From Cornus controversa (taxonomy: Eukaryota; Streptophyta; Magnoliopsida; Cornales; Cornaceae), in contig CM048852.1 of assembly GCA_026545225.1 (NCBI GenBank), positions 57,357,146 through 57,421,145 on the forward strand: DNA of 64,000 bases, read 5' to 3'. A program made the translations under genes and the position numbers. Below the pieces are notes generated by a model, which did no database searches, had not been told where the DNA came from, and worked only from the letters and a program-made list of their open reading frames with translations. Shown here piece by piece: positions 26,431 to 59,649 of this stretch. The first letter of the stretch is position 1. Every line of letters begins with the position of its first letter.

Positions 26431-29109
26431 ATGAGGAACACCGATTCTAAGTATCATCCAGTGTCGATTTCTGTTTTGCTGTTCTTGGCCTTTGTGATTC
26501 GTGTAATCTTAGCTGCCGATTATGTTCCAACCGATAAAATTCTCCTAAACTGTGGGGTATCTCCCGAAACTACTGATGCTGATGGTCGGAAATGGACCTC
26601 AGATATCGGCTCAAAGTTTGCATCAGCAGGTGGGAAGACGTTGACATCCACTGCTGCTACTCAAGACCCTTCTGTTCCTGCGGTCCCTTACATGACCGCT
26701 CGGATTTTCGAATCTGAGTTCACCTATAGTTTTCCTGTAGCTTCTGGTCGTAAATTTGTTCGTCTGTATTTTTATCCTGCTTCTTATTTGGGTCGAAATG
26801 CTTCCAATGCTGTTTTCTCGGTGACCGCTGGCCAGTATACCCTTCTGAAGAACTTCAGTGCAGCACAAACAACTGAAGCTCTGAACTATGCTTTTATTCT
26901 TAAGGAGTATTCCGTCAATGTCCCCACTGAGACATTGAACATAACCTTCAAACCATCATCCAGTACTTCCAATTCCTATGCCTTTGTGAACGGGATTGAG
27001 GTTATGTCGATGCCTGACATATATAATACAGAGGATGAATCATCCTCAATTGTTGGCCAAGGTGCTCCATTCATCATTGACAATGGTACTGCTCTGGAAA
27101 ATGTTTATCGGTTAAATGTGGGTGGAAATAGCATTTCGCCCACTGGCGATACTGGTTTGTTTAGGTCCTGGTACGACGATTCACCATATATATTTGGGGC
27201 AGCAACAGGCGTTACAGTGGCTTCCGACTCAAATGTGACGATCAAGTACCCCTCAGGCATGCCTACTTATGTTGCACCAGAAGATGTCTATTCCACTGCT
27301 AGAACGATGGGTCCAACTGACAACATCAATAGAAATTACAATTTGACTTGGATGTTTGCAGTCGACTCGGGATTCTCTTACCTGGTTAGGCTCCATTTCT
27401 GTGAGGTTGCTCTAAATATAACCGTGATTAATCAAAGAGTGTTTGACATCTTCCTTAATAATCAAACTGCAATGAACGAGGCAGATGTGATTGCTTGGGC
27501 ACAAGCCAATGAAGTTCCAGTTTATAAGGATTTTGTTGTGGTGGTTCCTGGTGGGGCTCCTCAGCAGGATCTTTGGCTTGCTCTGCACCCAGCCATTGAG
27601 TCAAAGCCCCAATATTATGATGCGATACTGAATGGACTGGAGATATTCAAAATAAGCGATACTTCTGGAAATCTCGCCGGTCCAAATCCAGTCCCAGCTC
27701 CAAAACAGGATGTTATTGACCCATCATTAGTTAGACCATCATCCTCTTCGAGTCAGTCAAAGAATCAAAAGGCTATTATTGGCGGAGGTGTTGGTGGTGG
27801 CGTTGCTGCAATCCTTCTTGTTGGTTTGTTGGTTTGTGCTGTTTCCCGTCACCGTAGGCAGGGGAAGGACTCAAGTGCTAGCGATGGGTGGCTCCCTCTT
27901 TCTCTATATGGAAATTCACACTCTGCAGGCTCGGCAAAGACAAATACCACAGGAAGCTATGCTTCCTCCCTCCCTTCAAATCTTTGCCGCCACTTTTCAT
28001 TTGCTGAGATCAAGGCTGCCACCAACAACTTCGATGAGGCTCTACTACTTGGTGTAGGAGGTTTTGGCAAAGTTTACAAGGGAGAAATTGATGGTGGAAC
28101 GACTAAGGTGGCAATTAAGCGAGGGAACCCCCTTTCTGAGCAAGGTGTGCATGAATTTCAAACTGAGATCGAGATGCTTTCAAAACTCAGACACCGTCAC
28201 CTTGTTTCGCTAATTGGTTATTGTGAAGAGAACTGTGAAATGATCCTTGTCTATGATTATATGGCCCATGGAACCCTTCGTGAACATCTATACAAGACCC
28301 AAAAGCCGCCTCTTCCATGGAAGCAGAGGCTTGAGATATGCATTGGAGCCGCTCGTGGTTTACACTATCTCCACACTGGCGCCAAGCACACCATTATCCA
28401 CCGTGATGTTAAGACAACCAACATCCTCTTGGATGAAAAATGGGTGGCAAAGGTTTCTGATTTTGGGTTGTCAAAAACAGGTCCTACATTAGATCACACT
28501 CATGTTAGCACTGTTGTGAAGGGCAGTTTTGGTTACTTGGATCCGGAGTACTTCAGGCGGCAGCAACTGACAGAAAAATCTGATGTTTACTCATTTGGAG
28601 TTGTACTTTTTGAGATCTTATGTGCTCGGCCAGCTTTGAACCCAACTCTTCCAAAGGAACAAGTAAGCTTGGCTGAGTGGGCATTGCATTGCCAGAAGAA
28701 GGGCATTCTTGATCAGATTACTGACCCATATCTGAAGGGGAAGATTGCACCGGAGTGCCTAAAAAAGGTTGCTGAAACGGCAATGAAATGTGTGTCTGAT
28801 CAGGGGATCGACAGGCCATCAATGGGTGATGTGCTGTGGAACCTCGAGTTTGCTCTGCAGCTTCAAGAGAGTGCAGAGGAGAGTGGCAAGGGTCTGGGAG
28901 GTGTGGACATCGAGGAGGGTTCATTTGATGTAGCCTGTAAAGGAAAGCAGGATCCAAATGCATCCCCAGGTTTTGATGGTAACGTGATGGATTCAAGGAG
29001 CAGTGGGATGTCTATGAGCATAGGTGGCCGGAGCTTAGCTAGTGAAGATTCAGATGGATTGACGCCGAGTGCCGTGTTCTCACAGATCATGAACCCGAAA
29101 GGACGTTGA
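26431..29109 (+). CDS. FER: FERONIA-like receptor kinase (CrRLK1L family)
   Basis: Plasma-membrane receptor kinase that binds RALF peptides and cell-wall pectin, with LLG co-receptors, in growth, fertilisation and immunity. One uninterrupted exon encodes 892 residues (Arabidopsis FER has 895). A signal peptide (LLFLAFVIRVILAADY) is followed by two malectin-like domains with many N-glycosylation sites (about residues 36-415). A transmembrane helix lies at about 447-472 (IIGGGVGGGVAAILLVGLLV) with a basic stop-transfer SRHRR. The kinase has GVGGFGKVY from about 541, Lys563, HRD Asp659, DFG Asp677 and the KGSFGYLDPEYFRRQQ activation segment. The tail ends FSQIMNPKGR, typical of FER rather than of ANXUR or HERCULES relatives. 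The intronless coding region is normal for the family. Looks intact; no paralogue nearby. Confidence 0.97.
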   Translation: MRNTDSKYHPVSISVLLFLAFVIRVILAADYVPTDKILLNCGVSPETTDADGRKWTSDIGSKFASAGGKTLTSTAATQDPSVPAVPYMTARIFESEFTYSFPVASGRKFVRLYFYPASYLGRNASNAVFSVTAGQYTLLKNFSAAQTTEALNYAFILKEYSVNVPTETLNITFKPSSSTSNSYAFVNGIEVMSMPDIYNTEDESSSIVGQGAPFIIDNGTALENVYRLNVGGNSISPTGDTGLFRSWYDDSPYIFGAATGVTVASDSNVTIKYPSGMPTYVAPEDVYSTARTMGPTDNINRNYNLTWMFAVDSGFSYLVRLHFCEVALNITVINQRVFDIFLNNQTAMNEADVIAWAQANEVPVYKDFVVVVPGGAPQQDLWLALHPAIESKPQYYDAILNGLEIFKISDTSGNLAGPNPVPAPKQDVIDPSLVRPSSSSSQSKNQKAIIGGGVGGGVAAILLVGLLVCAVSRHRRQGKDSSASDGWLPLSLYGNSHSAGSAKTNTTGSYASSLPSNLCRHFSFAEIKAATNNFDEALLLGVGGFGKVYKGEIDGGTTKVAIKRGNPLSEQGVHEFQTEIEMLSKLRHRHLVSLIGYCEENCEMILVYDYMAHGTLREHLYKTQKPPLPWKQRLEICIGAARGLHYLHTGAKHTIIHRDVKTTNILLDEKWVAKVSDFGLSKTGPTLDHTHVSTVVKGSFGYLDPEYFRRQQLTEKSDVYSFGVVLFEILCARPALNPTLPKEQVSLAEWALHCQKKGILDQITDPYLKGKIAPECLKKVAETAMKCVSDQGIDRPSMGDVLWNLEFALQLQESAEESGKGLGGVDIEEGSFDVACKGKQDPNASPGFDGNVMDSRSSGMSMSIGGRSLASEDSDGLTPSAVFSQIMNPKGR

Positions 29110-51140: not shown

Positions 51141-53387
51141 ATATGATGCTTGCAATAACTGAGCGGATATTACTTTTGTCCAACAGGTTTAGTACTGTAA
51201 CTTTGAGAGGGAGAGAGATAGACTAGGGTGTATTCAATTAGGATTATAAAGGATTTTAAAACATTTTAAAAATGGGTGTATTCAATCTAGAATTTTATAG
51301 ACTTTTAAAGAGTCCATACAAATCTGGCGGTATTCAATCCAGAATTTTATGGACTTTTAAAGAGTCCATACAAATCTGGGGTATTCAATTAGGATTTTAA
51401 AAAAGTCTACAAAAGTCTAGGTGTATTCAAAAAGTCATAGATTTTGAAGGATTTTTGATTGATTTTGGTGGATTTGAGGGTGGAAGTTATAAATACTAAA
51501 GCCCATAACAAATTCAACCTTTTCCCCCACAGATTTTGGTAGACCTTTTTTTTTCTTCTTTAGAATACGAACAACATTTCTCCATCCTAAGATACACTCA
51601 TTTTTTCTCTTTTGGTTTTTTTTTCTCTCTTCTCAAATTCTCTCTTTTTCTATTCAGTTAAGATTTAAAAAAAGTCATAGTACAAACAAAACCAAATTAA
51701 TTGCACAAACAAAACAATCAATATATCAAAGATCATCAATGCCAAAATCCAGTTCGGTGCATAGTCCAATTTGTACCACAACACCGAAACCAAAAATTGA
51801 ATTTCAGATGGTGTAGTGGATCTTTGATCTATAAACAAATATATCAATTCTTAAAATAATATATATATACACACACACACAATAGGGTTTGTGAGGGTAG
51901 TATTGTACTGGTTTATAATTTATTATATATCAATGCATATACACTTGTACGGATTTACTCTCATATAGATACTCATTTAACATGCTACAATGTTTATATA
52001 CACTTTTACATATTTGTTCTTATATGTATACTCATTTAACAAGCCATACATACAATAAAACAAATGTCTATATACCTTTTAAATATACAAAATAAAAAGA
52101 AATTTTATTTTTTATAAAGACTTTCATATGAAAAATATTTTATGGGGCATCAAAAGTAGATATTTAGAATCTTTTTGGTTTAATTTTTTAAAAACAATTT
52201 TATGTTTTAGATAAATGAAAACCAAGAAAGTTGTACAAAAAAATTTATTTTGTTGTAAGTTTTACGAAAATTGTTTTCTAAAAATTCAGTTACAAAAAAA
52301 ATACATTTGTCTTTTAAATTTTTTTCAAACACAAGAGCAACAACGAAATAATGCTAATGAATGATAGTTAGTATAGCTTTGAATATGTAGAGAGATGTCG
52401 GCCACAATGATAACAATGAGAACTAAGGATATTGAGTAATGCATGTTAAATATTTTTCTTTAAATTTTGCTTTCAAACTTGTTATAAATTTGTCACTATA
52501 CTTTTGTGAATGCCAGTTATTTTGCGCTTGTTATAATTTTTTTTTTCATAAAAATTATGGTGCGCACCGCAATAGTATAATTTTTTTTTTTATAAAAAAA
52601 AAAATGTCTATATATCCTATCTATCTAATACAATGACGCAAAAATTAGAAAATATAAAAATATTTTATTTACCATGAGTATAACTTTTTTGTCATTAGCT
52701 TAACATATAATACGAATAAAATAACAAAAGAAAGAGCATGGTTCAGCTCAATCTAAATCATACGTTCAACTTTCATTTTGACATATATTTTTTAATCATT
52801 TTTCGCACGGTTATGAGGAGGGATATATGTAACTTTGTATCGGTTCTTAATAATTCTATTAAATAATTTCAAATAGCAGAAACTATAAATAATAGCTTAT
52901 CCATTTTGCATTATACTTGCCCTTGAACCATTGGTTTACTTGCACGTAAAAATATAATTCAAGGATACAAATAAATAAAATATGTTACCCAAGTGTTGAC
53001 CCTAGAGGGGGTGAATAGGGTCAATGGCAAATTATGACAATTTTTCACTAATTTAAATTGCAAGAACAAATCTAAATACAAGCAATAGTGAAATGAGAAA
53101 ATTGAAATTGATGTACAAAGATTAAAAGAGAGAGTTAGAGAGAATCAAATACAAGTGACGCAAGATGTAGCGTGGTTCGGAATCCCCTACTTCACGACTC
53201 AAGATCCCTCTTAAGATTTCTCCCAAATTCACTAAGGCTTTTCCTTTCGGGTGGAAAGTAAACCTTTACAATGAAGCTTACAAGCTTCTTCTTTCTCTTG
53301 CTAAGTGAAGTCTTTTTCCTAGTCTTCCAGGGTTTAAACCAACCTTTTACAATAAATAAGAGGAAGATTGGAATACAATAAATGATA

Positions 53388-54739
53388 GGGAAAATTACAT
53401 TGACCTCCCCTGTAAATAGGCGAAATAACAGATACCTCCCATGTAGTTTCAAAATTAACACTGATCTCCCTTGTCAGTGTACCTTTTGTAACATTGACCT
53501 CCCCTGTCAGTGGTACAGGTACGAAAATTGATGATGTCATTGTATATTTGAGCTGAAAATCCCAAAATGCCCCTAAAACGTATGAAAATACTAAAATACC
53601 CTCTTTCACATATTATTTGTGGACATTTTTGCCCCCCACTATTCATTATCTCCTTCCCCCAATTAAAGTCACTGTATTCTTACATAATACACACACACAT
53701 ATATATGTATGTATACAAAAAGAAAAATATTCAGTGTTGTCTATAAGAATATTGAAGTCACTAATTTAGAAGTATATTCATATTATGAACACTGATTGAT
53801 ATTATAAATTGCATTCCAAAATAATTGATTATGATATTATATGTTGTTGTGGAAGGCAAGCAACCACTTTCCTCCATTGGATCAAAAAGCTAATCTGCTC
53901 TGTTATGGTGACCCAACTTGCAATGACAATCATAAGCATATTCTTTTAACACAATTCTTGCACCCACATTCGCATAACCCTGCTTGCATCACCAGCCTTT
54001 GCATACCCCAAAATTATATCATTCAATAACTGTATCGACTTCAATTTCTGGTAATATCGGAAAATCAATCTTGTTATTACGAACAAACAAGCCTCCATTA
54101 TCTTATAAAAAAAATAAAAAATACACACACAGGATCTCCTTGTAATCTGAACCTTTGATGTGTATATATATATATGTATATGTATATGTATACCTAGCCG
54201 TAACATTCTTCAAAATATGAGTGGCCATATAGCAGCGTGGAAAACGTACTTGGGGAACACCATTTTTCTTCATCTCAGCAAAAATAGCTTCAGCTTTCTC
54301 TAGTAACCCAGATTTGCAGTACGCACTTAGGAGAAGTGCATAAGAATCTTCAGTAGGGATGCACAGAGCTTCAATAAATATATATATATATCTGTGTATA
54401 TATGTATTTGTAGAAAAAAAGAAGAGAAGAAAAGAGAATTGGGAAAGGTGGAGAGATAATTTGCAGAGAAGAGAATAAAAGTTAGGTGATGGAGAGAGAG
54501 ACGGTGAGAGAGGAGAGAGAAAAAAAAAGTAAATGGGTTAAAGTGTAAGGGTAGATAGGTCTTTTCACATTATTAAATATTTTTAAATAAAATATAATAA
54601 AAAGTACATGGGTATAATTGTATTTTTACATTATTGGTCAACCGACAACACTGACAGGGGAGGTCAGTGTTATTTTTGAAACTACAGGGAGGTATCTGTT
54701 ATTTCATCATTTTACAGGGGAGGTCAATGTAATTTTCCC
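53388..54739. mobile_element. Pack-MULE candidate with 9-bp target duplication
   Basis: Inverted ends GGGAAAATTACATTGACCTC (53388) and its complement (to 54739) begin TIRs of about 100 bases (for example, gatacctccc...gtagtttcaaa near 53431 against tttgaaactac...gaggtatc near 54677). TAAATGATA lies immediately outside both ends (53379-53387, 54740-54748), an exact 9-bp duplication typical of Mutator-like elements. No transposase is present. The interior carries minus-strand pentatricopeptide-repeat gene fragments at 53850-54376, so the element fits a host-gene-capturing Pack-MULE. The TIR core matches the elements at 45158 and 47562. Confidence 0.85.
53850..54376 (-). pseudogene. Captured pentatricopeptide-repeat (PPR) gene fragments inside the Pack-MULE
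   Basis: On the minus strand, 54376 down to about 54200 is open for roughly 60 codons and reads CIPTEDSYALLLSAYCKSG, then LLEKAEAIFAEMKKNGVP, a P-class PPR motif and its neighbours. It ends at GCTAG|GTATAC, which could be an old exon border. A second stretch at about 54085-53850 holds LLNDIILGYAKAGDASRVMR and, in another frame, YDCHCKLGHHNRAD then LFDPMEESGCLP after a stop, again PPR-like. The spacer holds TA/CA microsatellites. PPR proteins bind organellar RNA; this fragment is too short and broken to do so. The donor gene lies outside the window. Confidence 0.65.
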
Positions 54740-56222
54740 TAAATGATATTTCTCAAAAATAAATGCTCAAGTCCAACTCACAACTATAGCAATAAATGAA
54801 TCTCAAGTTTGAAGCCCAAATCTTTGTTTCAAGAGGATGAGATAAGTAGATGATGATCAAGTTGTGTATGTTTGGCGTCTCTTGCTCATAAAATACAGAT
54901 CAAGACTCATATATAATGTCTATTTCAAAAATATGGCTATTGGAGGTGGTTGGGCAACATTAAATACAGTCAACTAGTCGTTCAGATCTGTTTCTGTAAT
55001 GTTAGTCGACTGGTCATTTAGGAGTAGTCGACTTATGAGTCTTTTCAAAACAAAAACGAGTTTTGAAACAAGATAAATCGACTAATTTATCCATTTACAA
55101 ATGGCTAAAAAACTCTATCCAGGTTAGACGATAGTTAGTCGACTGAGGGAAACTTTTTAAAAAATTATTTCAAGGCATAAGTCGACTGATGCATTTTCAT
55201 AAGTCGACTGATCTGTCCCTCTAGGAATGCCAAAAACTCACAGTTTATATTAGTCGACTGATAAGAATGTATAAGTCGACTGATACACGTTCATCATTAA
55301 AAAAATAAAGCTTTGACATACAAGCAAAGTCTAAACCATCAAGGACTTCAAAGATGTGATTCAATGTGATCAAATCCTATTCTCAAGAGGCTAAGGATCA
55401 ATATGAAATGTAAGAATGATACGCACATGTCTTAAAAACTTGTTTTGAGAAATTGAGATTCAAGCAAGATATTCAAATAAAGCTTTACAAGATTACCTAA
55501 GCTCTCACTATTTCTTAACTACCCTAATTCTTCTTTGATTGGCATGATTCTTCAAGCTTGATGTGCCAACTTCATTTCTATGTGATGAATGCTTTTATTC
55601 ATATCATCTTTAATGATTTATCCTCATTGTGAATGCTATCTTGAATAAATCATTGTTCTAAGCAATCATTCAATGAAAATGTTAGAACCTGACACCATTA
55701 ATGGTTTGTTATCATCAAAATTGCAAGATTGCCCTTTGATTAAAACCTTTAGGTCAACAAAATATATTGAAGAAATCATTACAAGTCTATAAAAATTCAT
55801 TAAAGTCTCTAATAGAAGTCTATAAAAATTCATGAAAGACTGTAATAAAAGTTTATAGAAATTCATGAAAGTCTGTAATAAAAGTCTATAGAAATCCATG
55901 TATTCTACTTAAATCCATAGAAATTCATGAAAGTCAATCACTTAAAATATGTCTTTCAAAATCATTTAAAATCCTAATTGAATACACCTTCCTTAAATTG
56001 AGGATAAACAAGCAAGAGAATGTTTAATCATTCTTTACATACTTAGTAAAAAGCATTTGAATCGCTTTGAAGTTAGGCAATGATAGGTTCAAAATCTTCA
56101 ACTAATTATTCCTCCTCCGATTATTCTTAAATTACATCAAATTATTACAAAAAATATAATTAAATACAACATACACAAATTATATATTAAATAATATTAC
56201 CTCCGGCGTCATTTATCCAATC

Positions 56223-58635: not shown

Positions 58636-58803
58636 TTAATGATTATTATGAGAAGTTAACCATAGAGTAACACAAGCATAAAAAAATATTATTATTATTA
58701 AAAAAATCGGCATCAAGTAAATTTACAGATTTAAGACGCATTGAGTTTATGCAATTGATTGCAATATCAAGAAATATATTATAGAAACAATAATAAACTA
58801 TAA

Positions 58804-59649
58804 TGTTGCGTTTGGTACGCGTGAATGGAATGGAATGAAGTTGGGAATGGAATGAAATGATCATTCTCATTCTATTGTTTGGTTGCAAATATGAAATGAA
58901 GTGGGAATGAAATAAAATCAAATTCTCCAAAATACCCCTCCTAATGACAAATAAATTAAACCAACAAATATGTGATGGTGAAGGAAGGTGGCGATGTGGA
59001 GGTGGTGAAGGAAGGTGGTGATGTGGAGATGGTGGCGGTGGAGGAAAGTGGTGATGTAGAGGTGGTGGTGGAGGAAGGTGGTGATGTGGAGGTGGTGGAG
59101 TGGAGTAGTGGGGGTGGTGGTGAAAGAAGGTGGCGATGTGGCGGTGTTACGGTAGGGATGGTGGTGGCGATGTGGAGGTGGTAGAGTGGTGTGGTAGGGG
59201 TAGAGGTGGAGGAAGGTGGTGATGTGGCGATGGTGCAGTGGGGGTGATGGCGGCGATGTGGAGGTGGTGGCAATGGTGGGAGTGGCGGTGGCGATGGAGG
59301 TGTGGTGGTGGAGGAAGGCAGCGGCAGCGACGGTGGTGGAGGAATGTGGCGATATGGAGGTGGTGGTGTAGTGGAGTATGAAGGTAGCGATGTGGGGGTG
59401 GAGGTGGTGGTGGTAAAGCCGGTGGTGGTGGTAGAGCCGGTGTGGTGGTGGTGGTGATGGAGGTGAAGGACTTTTTGGTCATATGAATTTTTTTTTAATC
59501 TTACTGGGAATGGAATACCCATTTTATATGTTTAACTATGGAATGAATTTTCATTCCAAGGGAATGCTCACTTTAAATTTCACACCAAACAAAAAAATGG
59601 TTGGAATGGACAATTCATTCCATTCCATTCCTGCGTACCAAACGCAACA
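58804..59649. mobile_element. PIF/Harbinger-type MITE, TAA target duplication, enclosing a GGT-rich minisatellite
   Basis: TGTTGCGTTTGGTACGC at 58804 is the exact complement of the right end at 59649, with GAATGGAATGGAATG arrays just inside. TAA lies outside both ends (58801-58803, 59650-59652). The centre is almost entirely a GGTGGAGG-type minisatellite. No transposase. Confidence 0.75.
58975..59465 (+). repeat. GGTGG/GGAGG-rich minisatellite
   Basis: About 490 bases of irregular units such as ggaaggtggtgatgtggagg on the plus strand. Strongly G-rich on one strand, so G-quadruplex formation is possible. The long Thr/Pro/His-rich reading frame on the other strand is a composition artefact. 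Confidence 0.85.

Follow-up and report, generated by a model that had tools for sequence, protein, structure and literature searches.

The locus analysed here raises the question of how a transposon without a transposase of its own comes to hold pieces of several host genes. Our window is a stretch of 64,000 nucleotides of Cornus controversa DNA (contig CM048852.1, positions 57,357,146 to 57,421,145), and a preliminary description made from its sequence had proposed, at 53379..54748, a Mutator-like element (MULE) that had captured pieces of pentatricopeptide repeat (PPR) genes. We find that the element is a Pack-MULE, i.e., a non-autonomous MULE carrying host-gene fragments, here from at least three genes of which two encode PPR proteins, and we put the probability of this at about 0.93. 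The capture of PPR sequence was thus correctly recognized from the start, while the mosaic of two PPR genes with a PP2A B56 gene, and the sharing of its pieces with other elements, are additions to that description. At odds slightly better than even, we further propose that the cargo was assembled stepwise by repair copying inside elements that already existed.

An element with Mutator-type ends

The element proper spans 53388-54739 (1,352 bp) between two copies of TAAATGATA, at 53379..53387 and 54740..54748, so that the interval first proposed was exact, its outermost bases being target-site duplications (TSDs). The two copies are identical over 9 bp, as expected for the 9-11 bp TSD of Pack-MULEs; TAAATGATA is absent elsewhere in the window, and the probability of finding identical 9-mers by chance at two preset sites is ~9e-6 given the base composition. 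The terminal inverted repeats (TIRs), foreseen at about 100 bases, extend over 53388..53480 on the left (+ strand, 93 bp, starting GGGAAAATTACATTGACC) and 54648..54739 on the right (- strand, 92 bp) and align to each other at 91% identity, which places them above the 50 bp or more given among the criteria for MULE copies (Ferguson and Jiang, 2012, PMC3310237). The left end contains a 17-base motif four times at a spacing of 30-33 bases (repeat family D2). Inward of the TIRs lie a left subterminal shell (53481..53733; family matches within q1-345) and a right one (54374..54647, GA-rich then AT-rich), both common to other family members.

We joined the tested flanks (53180..53378 and 54749..54960) over a single copy of the TSD and searched the genome (771.7 Mb in 61 contigs). 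All 40 matches that were scored, from 676 first-look candidates, cover q1 or 2 to 420 unbroken at 88-92% identity. They are paralogous empty sites of the element, running continuously through the position of the left TSD, and bear out the target duplications; as the joined flanks match so many genomic places without a break, the element was inserted into a high-copy repeat, of which the left flank is a portion and the right flank the continuation. Five pairs of flank matches lie on the same strand 7.8-16.5 kb apart (e.g., C9:3738780/3748396 and C1:6797985/6805754), which suggests that this repeat is probably of the long terminal repeat type.

The 29-base end pattern, with at most 2 mismatches, occurs 396 times in the genome (194+202) and its reversed control not once. 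TSDs were compared in 29 elements for which both ends were available, including the one in the window; five others (L004, L020, L025, L042 and L049) were omitted, one end of each missing from the comparison. Exact 9-bp duplications stand at the aligned ends in 22 of the 29, and in 25 when a shift of one base either way is allowed; 27 agree at 8 of 9 positions or better. Among 5,800 shifted controls, the counts were 1 and 12. Judged by eye, L004 is bordered by TTAATATTA on each side.

One relative, L081 on C1, is delimited by two perfect matches to the end pattern at a distance of 6.57 kb; it has end blocks 88-92% like those of the window element and, again judged by eye, TTTATTAAT on each side. 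Its open reading frames (ORFs) match the MuDR DNA-binding domain DBD_Tnp_Mut (PF03108, 9.5e-12) and the MULE transposase domain (PF10551, 1.4e-9), the domain lying more than 2.9 kb from either element end; these ORFs are in different frames and may be disrupted or divided by an intron. With a transposase-bearing relative that has matching ends, the element belongs to the Mutator superfamily. At 30 further PF10551 loci, taken from 150 listed matches, no family ends were found within the 1.5-kb flanks, a distance that ends placed as in L081 would escape, and end-like matches there were at most 39 bp long and mostly simple repeat. L081:582-1025 (+) also holds an ORF with a weak match to a GRF zinc finger, below cut-off.

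Within the window element itself, no transposase domain was found by Pfam in any of the 14 ORFs submitted (4, then 10, of 36 listed ORFs of at least 25 amino acids), as in other Pack-MULEs and as had been described. On the minus strand, one ORF matches the Pfam PPR family (PF01535, E=8.5e-9, 35.5 bits against a cut-off of 25), in agreement with the PPR-like coding text first noticed there; a second ORF gave PPR matches that were all below cut-off, and the third and fourth ORFs of the first set gave none.

Most of the other members found lack this interior. Among the best 40 of 1,096 candidates, which were the ones scored, the other members share only the outer 340-370 bp, apart from single interior pieces in a few. 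A search with the interior alone (53724-54373; all 22 candidates scored) returned one other full copy, on C9, at 93% identity, and the remaining matches were partial. The C9 copy is flanked by AAAAAATTA, which differs from the TSD of the window element, and the cargo has thus been mobilized as a unit. Between the middles of the two copies there are 18 differences in 649 aligned sites, and 30 gap columns; over all aligned sites the copies differ by 4.1%, or by 3.5% without the right subterminal block. Substitution rates in the range of 0.65-1.3e-8 per site per year would give a split ~1.4-3 million years ago, which is a weak figure. Two other family members carry a fragment of a Dicer dimerization domain (L015:890-1108, 8.5e-19; L016:763-1053, 8.6e-16); the other 8 of 10 ORFs taken from the middles of nine members (197 such ORFs listed) had no Pfam match above cut-off.

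Donor genes of the cargo

The preliminary description had suggested a search for donor PPR genes with a comparison of exon borders, and this yielded single-copy donors on both C5 and C7. Block C (54190-54377) matches the C5 gene at L043:4597-4785 with 93% identity over 189 bp. Its exon part (54250..54377, - strand) is one PPR repeat of that gene (L043:4597-4725) and the source of the PF01535 match, and its remaining part (54190..54249, - strand) covers the start of a 4.1-kb intron (60 bp), homology continuing beyond the inferred splice site. The donor frame runs through two PPR repeats to CCCCCAA, followed by GTATGT, and the next PPR exon starts at L043:8843 after CAG at L043:8842; judged from these frames, the intron would be 4,117 bp long and of phase 1. 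All three candidates for this donor, which is single copy, were scored, and apart from the gene itself only the window element and the C9 copy match. Capture of block C from genomic DNA is supported, since 60 bp of donor intron were apparently kept. A genomic rather than RNA-derived capture had been suggested before, from a possible exon edge at GCTAG|GTATAC. For block C the suggestion holds, at a different edge, 54250|54249, as read from the donor; block A lies within one exon. We rejected GCTAG|GTATAC as an exon edge because homology to the donor intron reaches that point from inside: it is the end of the intron-derived sequence and the start of a TA-rich microsatellite between blocks B and C (54159..54193), whose length is unequal in the window and C9 copies.

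Block A (53810..54087, - strand) derives from a single exon of another PPR gene, on C7 (L045), and its pieces are ~90% identical to that donor; internally, two large deletions and some smaller ones are present, as is an in-frame stop. The donor has one long open frame (591 codons read; PPR_2, 7.1e-81), and its protein is probably like CRP1 of Arabidopsis (At5g42310). Comparison with solved structures matched PPR proteins in general and did not settle the identity of the donor. This donor stretch is single copy (7 candidates, all scored), and with one exception its other matches fall in five places: the window element, the C9 copy, L041 (C8), L044 (C5) and L042 (C10). Both ends, with exact TSDs, are present in L041 and L044, and L042 yielded a left end only. 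The exception is C8:62377035-62377132, 98 bp with 84% identity to the CRP1-like exon. The same 281 and 249 donor bases are missing from block A in all five places, with TATG at each edge of the first gap (281 bases). A further 12-bp deletion is common to the window element, the C9 copy and L041, and two more, of 12 and 17 bp, to the window element and the C9 copy.

Block B (54082..54184, - strand) resembles, over ~100 bp, the 5' region of a C7 gene of the PP2A B56 family (L050; Pfam B56, 2e-117). Longer and closer versions of the L050 region are present in L048, L047 and L021 (286, 342 and 302 aligned columns at 93, 86 and 86%), and ~90 aligned columns of it in L049. Donors are thus assigned to the C5 and C7 PPR pieces directly and to the PP2A B56 piece, also from C7, through these longer copies in other elements. 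Block D (53734..53800, 67 bp) is 95.5% identical to C10:30713540 (L046), a 4-kb stretch in which no family end was found. L005 matches L046 over 435 columns at 88%, and its left part enters block D near the same point.

Compared with the C5 donor over 39 codons, block C shows 1 silent and 4 replacement changes in the window copy and 3 silent and 4 replacement changes in the C9 copy. This ratio and the in-frame stop of block A disfavour a selected protein, and nothing points to such a product; the captured cargo is most likely non-coding passenger DNA.

A proposed relay of cargo between elements

The partial matches allow the history of the cargo to be addressed. The PP2A capture of L041 surrounds the CRP1-like piece, which falls between positions 1739 and 1717 of L050, so A and B are joined in this element with the junction found in the window. 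The PP2A piece also occurs in some elements without the CRP1-like piece. With reference to the element ends, block A of L042 and L044 is oriented like that of the window element, and the inverted orientation is seen for A+B in L041 and for B in L047, L048 and L021. Because the orientation of A and B differs between L041-type elements and the window element, an inversion or an exchange of ends is needed. The right ends of L041, L044, L021, L047 and L048, together with L023 and L024, form a class apart from that of the window element with a support of 1.000. By distance, the shell of the window element is nearest to L003 at both ends, the C9 copy aside, and in the right-end tree L005 adjoins the window element (support 0.762).

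We lean towards the reading that MULEs here take cargo not only from genes but from other MULEs too, fragments being relayed, inverted and recombined between different ends with successive steps still visible. The PP2A B56 piece would have been captured in elements of the L048/L047/L021 type, and the CRP1-like piece in places of the L042/L044 type. The two may then have been combined in an L041-like element, and the A+B cargo passed to a different shell, where it would have been joined to the genomic PPR exon-plus-intron piece; the finished composite would then have transposed, giving the window and C9 copies. Copying of the cargo could have occurred by DNA repair, gaps in existing elements being filled with switches of template, and the transposase of an L081-type relative presumably moves the window element in trans.

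Several observations weigh against this stepwise order. The opposite orientations require at least one added inversion, and the left-end tree does not have the clean split between shells seen for the right ends. The direct match of block B to L050 is weak (77% over 78 bp), and block D has no assigned source gene. Few block A substitutions support the order: five columns unite the window element with the C9 copy, one unites these two with L041 (two when L044 is left out) and one unites L042 with L044, and there is a conflicting column shared by the C9 copy and L041. Since these substitutions carry little signal, the case for a relay rests on the shared deletions and the A|B junction.

It is those same deletions that an alternative to the relay would explain by another route, namely independent captures of the CRP1-like piece from a pseudogene that was already deleted. 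Identical deletions everywhere would follow from such a pseudogene if it has since disappeared from the assembly, the short extra match at C8:62377035 (84%, 98 bp) might be reminiscent of one, and L042 shows one element end only. No such pseudogene was found elsewhere among the seven scored candidates, and the A|B junction and the extra 12-bp deletion are common to L041, the window element and the C9 copy; we therefore regard independent capture as unlikely. A capture by way of spliced RNA, i.e., as complementary DNA, is far less probable still. The CRP1-like pieces lie 281 and 249 bp apart in the donor, which at first resembled lost introns, and an RNA route would be compatible with block A taken alone, given that it falls within one exon. 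This intron-less reading of block A was dropped: the donor pieces share one open frame and one gap has TATG at both edges, so that the gaps are deletions and not introns, and block C keeps 60 bp of what appears to be an intron.

That the interior might be ordinary sequence of the transposon family, its likeness to PPR genes being residual or accidental, has the lowest probability of all and is close to negligible. Many members do share left and right blocks of ~340-370 bp, and a few share single interior pieces, but the whole interior matches one other copy only; an interior shared by all copies, which had been named beforehand as the finding that would speak against capture, was looked for and is not what the family shows, and the suggested search for further copies with these TIRs gave the 396 end-pattern occurrences and the single full copy on C9. 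In addition, the pieces match host genes (a PPR exon at 93%, the second at ~90%), the Pfam PPR match is above cut-off and the PPR donors are single copy. A different matter is whether the capture has a function, with antisense or small RNAs of the element regulating the two PPR genes. PPR genes are known targets of small RNAs, and the fragments, 128-278 bp long, are ~90-93% identical to two PPR genes with open frames. The excess of replacements in block C and the stop in block A oppose a selected protein and do not bear on an RNA role, which we nevertheless consider improbable.

Elsewhere in the window, open frames encode a Malectin-like receptor kinase (26431-29106, +, a single frame) and a protein with a TFIIS central domain and zinc ribbon (461-1456, +), and overlapping His/Pro/Thr-rich repetitive ORFs in three frames at 58646-59531 (-) are likely a repeat array. 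At 55005-55281 there are seven + strand occurrences of GTCGACT, against two in all the rest of the window. Neither Rfam nor a tRNA scan returned any match in the window.

Comparison with known elements

Pack-MULEs carrying host gene fragments were reportedly described by Jiang and co-workers in 2004. Elements with fragments of several genes have been reported (PMC9168764, citing Jiang 2004), and a review of the subject (PMC8616336) and a transcription survey (PMC1852403) are available. Multi-gene Pack-MULEs are therefore already known, and the one described here stands out by an unusually legible assembly history. Published accounts state that the mechanism of host DNA acquisition by MULEs is yet to be understood (PMC3310237), or call the acquisition not understood or perplexing (PMC3310237, PMC8277862), and gap filling with microhomology is described for animals (PMC8277862). 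Pack-TYPE elements built from multiple loci have also been presented (PMC8903248); the part of that account at hand counts loci and does not trace stepwise transfer. We found no on-point account of secondary or stepwise MULE capture in the literature searched, outside which most subscription papers lie, so this is no sign that the process is unpublished.

Two described elements come close in single respects. Grapevine Cactavine-5 (PMC2528002) is, like the window element, a DNA transposon with part of a PPR-domain gene, which lies in the opposite orientation to its transposase; unlike the window element, it belongs to the CACTA superfamily, has a transposase ORF and carries one gene. The tomato Pack-MULE family PM-ZIBP (PMC3310237) likewise has several copies and an identified parental gene, but this is a single donor gene and most copies have tandem TIRs. 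With Pack-MULEs as described in the sources available, the window element shares non-autonomy, long TIRs, a 9-11 bp TSD and host gene fragments, with several genes per element. It differs from the elements described there in that apparent assembly intermediates are still in the genome and its cargo is found in two classes of right ends. As these elements have junctions and deletions in common and the single-copy PPR donors are extant, the order and mechanism of capture become readable from sequence, and the same series of elements makes the relay of cargo between elements testable.

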